Positions 23,195 to 38,197 of a DNA stretch of 38,197 bases are shown here, one piece after another (position 1 is the first letter of the stretch; every line of letters begins with the position of its first letter). The DNA is taken from assembly GCA_026127935.1 (NCBI GenBank), contig JAJSLL010000017.1:1-38197 (forward strand), in the 5' to 3' direction. Position numbers and translations under genes: made by a program. The notes beneath the pieces are model-generated. The model was not told the origin of the DNA. It ran no database searches and saw only the letters and a program-made list of their open reading frames with translations. The stretch is from Thermoplasmatales archaeon. GTDB lineage: Archaea > Thermoplasmatota > Thermoplasmata > Thermoplasmatales > GCA-001856825.

Positions 23195-23675
23195 ATTCCT
23201 CTCTCCAGTGAGGCTCCATCGTCCTTTCGAAGGCGGTTCAGGTATTACCTACGGAGGGGCCATTCCGCTATTTGCTGGGGTTGATTTGAGAGCAATATAT
23301 TATCTTTTCTTGCCTAAAACAACCTTCTTTAAGGCGTTAGCAAACTTCTTCTCCCCCTTTCGTCGAAAATTTCATTGAATAGGTCTTCTCCCTAGTTGGT
23401 ACCTTTGGGTCTTCCTTGAATGACTTTAAACGTTTATTCTCTGTTGCTCAGCCTCTCTGCCTGTTTTCTATATAAAAGCAGGGACACTACTAAGAAATAC
23501 ATACAGGTGGACCAGAAGGGCGTGCTGGAGGCCATGTTGGAGAAGAAGTCGGCTTTTTTCTGGCGGAGGCGAACCTGCTATGAATCCCACGCCCCGAACG
23601 GGAGGTTAATATCCATCCCCAGCCGGATTTGATTGATGAGGTGAATTTGGTGGATTTGAGCGAGGTGCTTTAGTG
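23195..23675. other. Intergenic boundary region: hyf-like operon promoter, repeat core E and element edge
   Basis: These 481 bases separate the chromosomal operon (leftward) from the integrated element (rightward). On the minus strand a TATA-like GATAATATATTG (about 23297-23308) lies about 100 bases before the hyfC-like ATG. A hyphenated palindrome AGGTA-T-TACCT near 23240-23250 lies between them and could be an operator. On the plus strand CTATATAAAAGC (23468-23479) is a good TATA box with no start codon until 23676, leaving a leader of about 175 bases that contains repeat core E. A 70-codon frame (23420-23632) is not convincing as a gene. Confidence 0.45.
23589..23618 (+). repeat. Hairpin core of the dispersed repeat, copy E
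   Basis: ACGCCCCGAACGGG is identical to the core of copy C (14728-14741), again on the plus strand. The preceding bases do not align convincingly with copies A-D, so only the core is claimed. Its position at the left edge of the integrated element is notable. Confidence 0.4.
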
Positions 23676-24023
23676 ATGGGCGGCTTAGATATTCTCACCG
23701 TTCCTGACTACCAGAAGCGCCTGGACATCCTCTCGGTGATAACTCCGTTCAGGCCGGGGATGTTTATTTCTGCCAACCAGGAGGAGATCCTGAGACTATG
23801 TGAAGGACAGCTGGAGATTGCGGAGGATGAGCTGAGAAGGTGGGCGGAAAGGCACTCTGAAGACGGGACCTCTGAAGTGAAATGCAGGACCGTTGGGGCA
23901 AATCCTCTCACGGTCAAGATCCTGGAAGTGAAGGATCCGGAGCAGGAGATCATCGAGAGCAATTTCAGGGATAGGAAGCAGAGACAGAGGAGATGGCAGC
24001 GGGAAAGGAGGTTATTGGAATGA
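23676..24023 (+). CDS. Unknown small soluble protein, first gene of the integrated element
   Basis: A 115-residue protein starting at ATG 23676 (a GTG lies just ahead at 23673). The N-terminal half is mildly hydrophobic (LDILTVPDYQKRLDILSVIT). The C-terminus is strongly charged with a run of Arg/Gln/Lys (FRDRKQRQRRWQRERRLLE), suggesting a helical nucleic-acid or protein contact. No family is recognised. It is plus strand like all genes to its right and, unlike genes on its left, uses many GC-ending codons and AGG arginines, so it belongs to the element. It ends just before the palindromic repeat array. Confidence 0.65.
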   Translation: MGGLDILTVPDYQKRLDILSVITPFRPGMFISANQEEILRLCEGQLEIAEDELRRWAERHSEDGTSEVKCRTVGANPLTVKILEVKDPEQEIIESNFRDRKQRQRRWQRERRLLE

Positions 24024-24030
24024 ATCAAAA

Positions 24031-24232
24031 TTTTACGTACGTACGTCTCATGAGCCTTCTTCCCTCAATGCCATGCTCTGGAGAATCAATATTACAGGGC
24101 TTCTACAAACACGGTAAGAATTTTACGGCCGTAACACTTTTGGACAACCACGTACGTGGCGTTTTCCGGGCCTTGAAAAATGGCCTCTATTTTATTTTTT
24201 TAAGAATTTTACGTACGTACGGTACGTACGTT
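24031..24232. repeat. Array of ACGTACGT-type palindromes (possible origin or operator)
   Basis: Four palindromic sites lie in 200 bases: TTTTACGTACGTACGT (24031-24046), TTTTACGGCCGTAA (24121-24134), CCACGTACGTGG (24148-24159) and a double site starting TTTTACGTACGTACGG, then TACGTACGT (24207-24232). The three sites preceded by AATTTT are about 86-90 bases apart. An AT-rich stretch (24187-24210) adjoins the last one. Such spaced palindromes are typical of iteron origins or multi-operator control regions. The first operon of the element begins immediately after. Confidence 0.65.
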
Positions 24233-24238
24233 CCATTC

Positions 24239-24269
24239 ATGATAGAGATAGAGAGAGATAGAGAGAGAA
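24239..24269 (+). repeat. GATAGAGA purine microsatellite
   Basis: A run built of GATAGAGA/GAGA units (GATAGAGATAGAGAGAGATA and so on) occupies about 30 bases directly before the SD of the next gene. It is a short tandem repeat in the leader and could vary in length by slippage. Confidence 0.6.
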
Positions 24270-24284
24270 TGGGAGGTGAAAGGG

Positions 24285-25163
24285 GTGCCCAATAGGATGA
24301 AGATAAGGACGGAGTACAAGGATACGAGAGGGTCCATGCACCTGACACCGAGGGAATGGGTTAAGGCCCTCATTCCCAAGGATGCGGACACTACGAACCT
24401 GTTCGAGAATTTCATATTGGCAGTGTATGGGTCCGGAGAAAAGAAGATAGAGGACATCAAGTCAGAGATCACGAGGACAGAGGGTGAGCTTGCAAGGATA
24501 CAGGGCAGACTTATAGACCTGAAGAGGAAGCTGGAGGACCAGGAGAGGGAGAACGAGAAGCTTGAGCAGATAAGGAGCGAGGTGGAGATGAATCTCCACT
24601 ATGCAAGGTATGTATTCCTCCGGGAGGTACTGTCTGGTCCGGTAATATCGAAACAGAAGGCAATCAAGATCGCATACGGAGTAGAGGCAACGGGCGAGAT
24701 ACTGGCGTGGGCCACAATGGTAAGGAAGAAGTTCCTTTCCAATGAGCTGGGAGAAGAGATGCAGAGGAAGGACACGGAGCCGCTCCTGAAATATCTGAAG
24801 GAGCACTTCGTGGAAGCGTATCCCGGAATAAGCTACGTGGGAAGAGGGGAAAAGGAGAAAGCAGCAAAGCAGGAATTCCTCGATGTGATGAGCGAATCTA
24901 AGAGGCTGTGCTCAAGGGGACATGTCTACAGCTCCCTCGAGAACAAGTGCCCGGAATGCTTGAGGTTAAATCGCAATCCCGAAGACTACATCCTAGCAAA
25001 CGTTCCATCAATATACATCAGGTTCGTCAACCAGGAGTTCGAGGGCTATTTCAGTGACCTCATCCTGTCAGAGGCCTTCAAGAAACTTGACGGGAAACTT
25101 GAACTGGATGGACCCAGAGAAACGAAAGCGATAGCCTCGGGAACTGGAAGGGTGAAAGCTTGA
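24285..25163 (+). CDS. Coiled-coil and zinc-ribbon protein, first gene of the element's first operon
   Basis: A roughly 292-residue protein of unknown function. Residues about 55-100 form a long charged heptad region (ITRTEGELARIQGRLIDLKR, LEDQERENEKLEQIRSEVE), a likely coiled coil. Near residue 210 a zinc-ribbon-like LCSRGHVYSSLENKCPEC supplies C-x3-H and CxxC ligands. The GTG at 24285 is chosen because SD GGAGGTGA (24272-24279) is correctly spaced from it; ATG 24297 is too far. The combination suggests a DNA-binding or scaffold protein, possibly the partner of the upstream palindromes, but this is inference. It overlaps the next small gene. Confidence 0.7.
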   Translation: MPNRMKIRTEYKDTRGSMHLTPREWVKALIPKDADTTNLFENFILAVYGSGEKKIEDIKSEITRTEGELARIQGRLIDLKRKLEDQERENEKLEQIRSEVEMNLHYARYVFLREVLSGPVISKQKAIKIAYGVEATGEILAWATMVRKKFLSNELGEEMQRKDTEPLLKYLKEHFVEAYPGISYVGRGEKEKAAKQEFLDVMSESKRLCSRGHVYSSLENKCPECLRLNRNPEDYILANVPSIYIRFVNQEFEGYFSDLILSEAFKKLDGKLELDGPRETKAIASGTGRVKA

Positions 25164-25300
25164 GGTCCCAATCAGACGACAGGGAGGCAAGGAGCCTCCT
25201 GGCTCCCAAGATCCTGGAAGCCGGTTTTGAGATAGTATCTTTCAGGGGGATAGACGAGGGGGACTACTGGATCCATGTACGGAAGGAGGCCCTAAAATGA
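25160..25300 (+). CDS. Small unknown protein, 46 codons
   Basis: A short frame starting with TTG at 25160 overlaps the previous stop (TTGA) and runs to TGA at 25298-25300, where it overlaps the next ATG. The product reads REARSLLAPKILEAGFEIVS, then FRGIDEGDYWIHVRKEALK. Its composition and AGG/CTC codon choice match the neighbouring genes, and it fills an otherwise unexplained 133-base gap exactly. It is soluble with an alpha/beta look. Function is unknown. Confidence 0.55.
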   Translation: MRSQSDDREARSLLAPKILEAGFEIVSFRGIDEGDYWIHVRKEALK

Positions 25301-25509
25301 TGCAGCTCTCATTGCTGGAAATAAAGCCCGTTATAACACCAGAGGAGATAGAATCTAAGGAAAAGGGGCTCCAGCGGTTGAAGAAGGCCTATTCCATACA
25401 GAAAGGAATAGCAAAGACAGCGAATGGCAGGGAAGCTTTTAACGCTGCGGTCCTGGCAAATCACCTGAAGACGGAAATTGAGAAAATGGAGAAGGAGTGG
25501 ATCAGATGA
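25297..25509 (+). CDS. Small helical unknown protein
   Basis: A 70-residue protein (MMQLSLLEIKPVITPEEIES to EIEKMEKEWIR), almost wholly helical and charged. It may be a coiled-coil or DNA-binding accessory protein. It overlaps the frames on both sides (ATGA junctions), so it is part of one translationally coupled operon. No family is recognised. Confidence 0.65.
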   Translation: MMQLSLLEIKPVITPEEIESKEKGLQRLKKAYSIQKGIAKTANGREAFNAAVLANHLKTEIEKMEKEWIR

Positions 25510-26127: not shown

Positions 26128-26170
26128 GCCCGATTCATCAAATAGTCGAATCATATAATTACTCTGATTA

Positions 26171-26203
26171 GCCTTCGAGAGAAGAGGGAACGCTCTCGAA
26201 GGC
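26171..26203 (+). terminator. Strong 11-bp hairpin between the two operons
   Basis: GCCTTCGAGAG (26171-26181) pairs perfectly with CTCTCGAAGGC (26193-26203) around an 11-base loop. A pyrimidine-rich TCCTCTTCTTTCTC follows, so it may end the first operon. A TATA-like CATATAATTA (about 26151-26160) lies just upstream. If used, it would place the hairpin at the 5' end of the surface-protein mRNA instead. Confidence 0.6.
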
Positions 26204-26243
26204 TCCTCTTCTTTCTCGGGCTTGTCGGGAAAAGAAAAACCAT

Positions 26244-37996: not shown

Positions 37997-38197
37997 TTTT
38001 AATTTTAAATGAAGCGTGAATTTAAAGAGTGGCTAAATTGAGGGATCCTGATCAGCTCCAAACATGGTGTACTTTTATCCTTAAAAGTTCATCGAACCAC
38101 CCGCTTTACTTAAAAACGAAGGGCTGAAATTGATTCAGAGATAGTCAAAATGATGAACTTTTAAATAAAAGTTTAAATTGAACATGCATGGAAGAGC
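37997..38197. other. AT-rich non-coding right end with a 13-bp inverted repeat
   Basis: No gene is seen in the last 200 bases. TTAAAAGTTCATC (38081-38093) is exactly inverted as GATGAACTTTTAA (38152-38164). Each arm also sits in a smaller palindrome (ACTTTT-ATCCTT-AAAAGT and AACTTTT-AAAT-AAAAGTT). This may be a control region or the terminus of the element. Confidence 0.45.

Follow-up and report, generated by a model that had tools for sequence, protein, structure and literature searches.

Ribbon-helix-helix (RHH) repressors encoded by archaeal viruses bind sites that overlap the transcription start site or promoter of their own genes, and distal high-affinity sites, with spreading toward the promoter, have been described for them (PMC5569661). 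The known examples SvtR, AvtR and F55 are small RHH proteins, and their sites are imperfect inverted repeats or ATAGATAG tandems (PMC5569661). The RHH autorepressor CopG of pMV158 is tied to the replication genes of a mobile element, copG and repB being cotranscribed, and the RHH antitoxin PrpA, whose targets are its own promoter and also an origin that contains repeats, offers a dual-role precedent in bacteria (PMC7848731). In the plasmids pPO1 and pTA1 of the Thermoplasmatales, the proposed oriC is an AT-rich repeat region beside a replication-type gene and adjoins Orc1/Cdc6 genes (PMC3177234).

Here we analysed a stretch of 38,197 nucleotides from a Thermoplasmatales archaeon (the window), which is a complete contig whose end at 38197 cuts the mobile element concerned. 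It contains an array of palindromes, which in our judgement is probably the autoregulatory RHH operator region of the gene starting at 24285 in a Thermoplasmata provirus. As with SvtR, AvtR and F55, a virus-encoded RHH protein would have a number of sites that cover or adjoin the promoter of its gene, from which spreading may be proposed; unlike in those systems, the RHH region is joined to a long coiled coil, with a zinc ribbon too in the window protein, and the putative operators of the window are perfect CG-bearing dyads inside a small open reading frame (ORF). The features of the locus are as follows (other genomes carry our own G numbers; G027 is from the same genus).

23673 to 24023, plus strand: upstream gene, 116 aa, with relatives in G029 and G090 (tblastn).
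24020 to 24295, plus strand: leader ORF, 91 aa, within which sites 1 to 3 and the main dyad all fall; its start overlaps the stop of the upstream gene (ATGA).
24035 to 24046, no strand: site 1, perfect 12-bp palindrome ACGTACGTACGT (sequence scan).
24123 to 24134, no strand: site 2, perfect palindrome TTACGGCCGTAA; G027 has the core ACGGCCGT at an equal distance.
24148 to 24159, no strand: site 3, perfect palindrome CCACGTACGTGG, of which G027 has an imperfect form (CACGTTCGT).
24175 to 24195, plus strand: weak inverted repeat GAAAAAT-GGCCTCT-ATTTTAT; a clean hairpin with 7-bp arms in G027 (GAGAAATGGCCTCTATTTCTC).
24186 to 24191, plus strand: TATA-like TCTATT, 25 bp 5' of the first core of the main dyad; putative promoter of the 24285 gene.
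24211 to 24231, no strand: main dyad ACGTACGTAC-G-GTACGTACGT, with ACGT cores 13 bp apart; G027 has the same sequence.
24272 to 24279, plus strand: ribosome-binding-like GGAGGTGA before GTG 24285 (by eye).
24285 to 25163, plus strand: predicted RHH-coiled-coil-zinc-ribbon protein, 292 aa; putative binder of the array.

The sequence ACGTACGT occurs five times in 197 bp (24035-24231), against 0.12 copies expected in the window; none of 100 shuffles had five copies, and five of its 12 places in the 1.58-Mb genome fall within these 197 bp. The leads AATTTTACG lie at 24029, 24119 and 24205, spaced by 90 and 86 bp, and the centres of the dyads lie 25-88 bp apart. Perfect palindromes of at least 12 bp number 13 in the window, three of which are packed into 125 bp. 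The three sites with a shared lead and the extra palindrome reported in the preliminary description of this DNA were all recovered at their places, and the counts of ACGTACGT put them beyond chance. The last site is larger than had been seen, being a perfect 21-bp inverted repeat with 10-bp arms around one base. A spaced pair of ACGTACGT had no further match in the window's own genome.

The array travels with the 24285 gene. The G027 homologue of the 24285 protein is 44% identical overall (48% over the matched part), and its gene is preceded by the same array, in which ACGGCCGT stands at the same distance, site 3 is degenerate and the main dyad is retained letter for letter between differing flanks. 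Besides the 24285 gene and its leader, no ORF of the window matches the 20-kb G027 stretch (E 1e-3). Allowing any centre base, the main dyad has one match among 84,980 species genomes, namely a 67,709-bp contig of Thermoplasmata archaeon isolate DBS2-4.bin120, which we take as the G027 contig; it encodes a 24285 homologue, and its dyad spacings are the same as in the window. The G001 homologue is more distant (hhalign 96.8%, E 2.8e-10), and the matching place there reads TTACGGCCGTAA-CAGCCGTAA. The G068 leader has ATACGTAT dyads and AATATACGTAA-GTTAT-TTACGTATATT, with the 13-bp spacing of ACGT cores that the window shows. No match was found for the array DNA among phages or for the exact main dyad among viral contigs. 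A search for the array in related elements, as the preliminary description had suggested, finds it in G027 itself and, as regards the layout, in further relatives.

A profile search placed the RHH-coiled-coil family at 25 places in 16 of 400 genomes of the class, in Thermoplasmata mobile elements; a phylum-wide search found it in 8 of 389 genomes, all of them already in the class search. We examined 21 leaders from these places, leaving out the identical second G068 copy, a G070 copy whose flanking bases equal those of G078, the second gene of the tandem pair in G098 and one G070 place at a contig start. Two or three dyads stand before most family genes; the usual positions are near -160 and between about -70 and -95, and a third dyad near -235 is common. 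In 13 of 20 leaders, none of the 60 dinucleotide shuffles did as well as the top dyads; elsewhere the shuffles as good (of 60) numbered one for G079, one for G001, three for G071, six for G090, seven for G078b, seven for G059 and 17 for G078a. The excess of dyads over shuffles is not clear in the leaders of G078a, G078b, G059, G090 and G071. When native control windows were used instead, 12 of 17 leaders stayed unmatched; controls as good were found for the window (20/1496), G071 (5/413), G078a (6/96), G124 (10/88) and G090 (92/743), and the window leader was matched because its 12-bp palindromes fall below the arm threshold.

From centre to centre, the last two dyads are separated by 72-74 bp in seven of the 13 leaders where both were found (G070a, G070b, G135, G098, G059, G105b and, at 73.5, G080 C10); in the other leaders, one of the two dyads is missing or not palindromic. 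Spacings of 67.5 (window, from site 3 to the main dyad), 67.5 (G068), 66 (G001), 82 (G098c), 104 (G124) and 124 (G048) were also found. We do not claim a single strict helical phase, given the cluster at 72-74 bp against 66-67.5 in the window, G068 and G001. The letters of the dyads vary by element (ACGTACGT, ATACGTAT, TTACGGCCGTAA, AATTTCGTAATACGAAATT and others). The leader of G080 C10, which was not used in forming the idea, has both the ORF and the dyads. It had been argued from the middle site that symmetry, and not exact sequence, is selected. The distant relatives, with wholly different dyads in the same layout, bear this out, but the middle site alone does not carry the argument, since G027 keeps ACGGCCGT itself at the same place.

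A putative promoter precedes the main dyad. A TATA-like hexamer starts 25 bp before the first core of this dyad in the window (TCTATT), in G027 (TCTATT) and in G001 (TCTATA), and 23 bp before it in G068 (TGTATA), although as a TATA box it is a weak match. The usual archaeal distance from TATA box to start would place the start under the dyad; the dyad would therefore cover the transcription start. As judged from sequence, the sites overlap the putative promoter of their own gene in all four elements measured, and multiple palindromic sites, as in RHH autorepressors, are present. The designation 'master operator' keeps its second word, as a probable autoregulatory operator of the 24285 gene, since the array travels with the gene and the TATA-like box precedes the last dyad at this distance in four elements. 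The first word is not upheld: ACGTACGT is absent from the rest of the window's element, and five of the eight TACGTA of the G068 provirus lie in this one region.

We propose that the product of the 24285 gene is an RHH protein that forms dimers and also has a long coiled coil and a zinc ribbon; its dimers would bind the ACGT-core dyads. Occupancy of the main dyad (24211-24231), which the TATA-like box precedes by about 25 bp, would cover the transcription start and repress the gene. The upstream dyads (24035, 24123 and 24148) may serve to raise the local concentration, or may allow bridging and spreading through oligomerisation. When the operon is driven by an upstream promoter, the leader ORF (24020-24295) would let translation continue into the regulator gene by coupling. 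An unexplained palindrome array would in this way be tied to a testable regulator family in Thermoplasmata proviruses.

An RHH-like region at the N-terminus and a coiled coil are common to the proteins of the family. The small protein of G090 matches CcdA (PF07362) above the Pfam cut-off, and three of 12 family members match PF07362 at E up to 0.1; CcdA is an RHH antitoxin family. For the window protein, we infer the RHH fold through the chain from the window over G001 to the family. It had no RHH match in Pfam, and in an RHH profile test its N-terminus ranked 5th of 925 scored sequences, behind three shuffles, with G027 at 22nd and G068 at 239th. Its structural model (mean pLDDT 67; a first AF2 model, with pLDDT 47, was discarded) has helices at 24-29 and 36-48 and a coiled coil at 51-117, with pLDDT of about 70 there and no strand before the two helices; Foldseek gave no match to this model in PDB or BFVD. 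Neither the 24285 protein nor the family members matched viral contigs, plasmids or phages, and no title or abstract listed in searches of open-licence papers describes this RHH-coiled-coil family or the array. In G098 C25 (L087, L089), two tandem RHH-coiled-coil genes stand behind one leader.

The array lies before the 24285 gene, as in the preliminary description, yet not in a non-coding gap, since the leader ORF spans it: the ATG of the ORF at 24020 overlaps the upstream stop, and its stop at 24295 is 11 bases into the 24285 gene. A leader ORF was found in 19 of 21 leaders, and it ends between -4 and +14 of the regulator start in 17 of 21, exactly at +4 (an ATGA overlap) in 13 of 21. In G068 and G098c it stops early, in G059 a longer upstream frame takes its place, and from G124 it is absent. 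Shuffling of the same bases gave a chance of 0.0005 to 0.048 per leader for the open frame in 18 leaders; the combined value is only indicative, because the frame was picked among three and some of the leaders are close relatives.

With an ORF so regularly present, the repeats might be codons or RNA hairpins, selected as part of a leader peptide or an RNA attenuator and not for DNA binding. Values of dN/dS of 0.45-0.80 in nine of nine pairs point the same way, as do group profiles that detect the leader ORFs of other groups in the right frame (E 7e-10, 3e-8 and 2.6e-8). Nevertheless, we regard this explanation as very improbable: in the 36 best-conserved codons, the differences between the window and G027 are distributed 8/8/7 over the codon positions, a decoy frame reaches E 1.9e-4 among the matches listed, the window/G027 leader profile found no in-frame relative at a useful E-value, and the first site stands in opposite orientations in G080 and G079 (by eye). 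PHROGs had no family for nine of ten leader ORFs and gave one weak match (E 0.016). A plainly protein-coding gene was rejected for the leader ORF, because the frame is kept and the protein is kept weakly, as judged by dN/dS, the codon positions and the profiles. In our reading, the leader frame stays open either for the sake of coupling or as a peptide that evolves fast, and the operators are written into it. The same 190-270 bases would then contain the operators, a promoter internal to the operon and an open frame that is conserved, although the letters of the sites change between elements; this is an unusual economy.

The array was also described as a candidate replication origin. On this explanation, the leader would be the origin of the element, and the RHH-coiled-coil protein would be an initiator or an origin-binding regulator of copy number that recruits the MCM of the element or the host. 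An MCM helicase gene stands directly upstream of four of the 21 leaders (G001, G068, G048 and G098 C25), which may link the module to replication, and in many leaders perfect AT-rich dyads, 21-33 bp long, are found at about -70 to -95. A repeat-bearing AT-rich region by a replication gene resembles the proposed pPO1 origin as outlined in PMC3177234, and binding of origin iterons by an RHH antitoxin lowers copy number according to PMC7848731. In G029, a large P-loop-like protein fills the slot instead. However, 17 of the 21 leaders have no MCM gene directly upstream, and there is none in the window; the TATA distance fits a promoter, and the sites are dyads and not tandem direct iterons. Cumulative GC skew, named as a check in the preliminary description, was computed for the 29,431-bp G068 unit and has no turning point at the array, which lies at offset 2492 on a rising slope, gene orientation being a confounder here.

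Unlike with PrpA, no toxin was recognised beside the window gene, tandem iterons are lacking and the part of the element covered here has no known initiator; unlike in pPO1 and pTA1, the proteins scanned here have no Orc1/Cdc6 match. The gene order also differs from that of pMV158, where copG comes first and repB second; here, the adjacent helicase gene, in the four leaders that have one, lies upstream of the operators. We consider an origin unlikely, though worth weighing, and such a role could coexist with autoregulation. If the leader is also an origin, it would provide a concrete and small test case for MCM-linked initiation in archaeal mobile elements. A bolder version, which we offer as speculative and doubtful, is that the family forms a new class of DNA-replication initiators of Thermoplasmata viruses and plasmids. 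The leader would then combine a small gene, operators and origin, the coiled coils would bridge dyads about seven helical turns apart, the complex would recruit MCM without Orc1/Cdc6, and a private dyad sequence would have evolved in each element.

A spaced array of dyads adjoining an RHH-type gene might be a partition centromere bound by a ParB-like RHH protein, of which ParG, omega and ParR are examples. No ParA- or ParM-type family was found by Pfam among the ten element proteins scanned, from an element cut by the contig end at 38197, and we hold a centromere to be very improbable. Accessory sites for recombination or excision near an attachment site seem highly improbable to us. An integrase C-terminal fragment does lie upstream in G090 (PF00589, E 5.9e-9), and 23420-23632, at the left end of the window's element, may be a split integrase C-terminus too, as it resembles the G090 fragment by eye; yet Pfam, which recognised the G090 counterpart, found no integrase in it. 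Moreover, the distance to an attachment site is not kept, because in G068 the MCM gene separates the integrase from the array.

The GC content climbs from about 0.41 to 0.50 near 23.5 kb, and further right are provirus-like genes: Pfam recognises a PrsW-type protease, and large secreted proteins as well as an ATPase were noted by eye. The 858-aa secreted protein had no match among viral contigs. On inspection by eye, the upstream gene also has relatives in G068 and immediately ahead of several further leaders. An otherwise syntenic element lacking the array, which the preliminary description had named as the case that would refute its proposal, does exist: the G029 element has virion genes and the small upstream gene in common with the window, and its slot is filled by a 567-aa protein with no Pfam match, P-loop-like by eye. 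The array is therefore one exchangeable module and not essential to that virion backbone.

Several minor features were also observed. A small gene soon 3' of the regulator starts with MxQxxL in the window, G027 and G090 and at the matching place of G029 (window 25297-25509; L034:8975-9304; L022:18687-18980; L035:8516-9283), a start that resembles a PCNA-interacting peptide; the next genes of most other leaders start otherwise. The G068 provirus is apparently partly in tandem, with at least 15.3 kb identical at an offset of 29,431 bp (C1 1811260-1826569 and 29,431 bp further on; L062-L064). A hairpin, GATTAGCCTTC...GAAGGCT (26166-26210), lies just 5' of the gene for the 858-aa secreted protein and has a counterpart in the G029 element (L022, near the end), with different letters in loop and stem. 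The hairpin with the loop GGCCTCT (24175-24195; L034, minus strand) sits between site 3 and the main dyad, and both sides of its stem have changed between the window and G027, from A-T to G-C.
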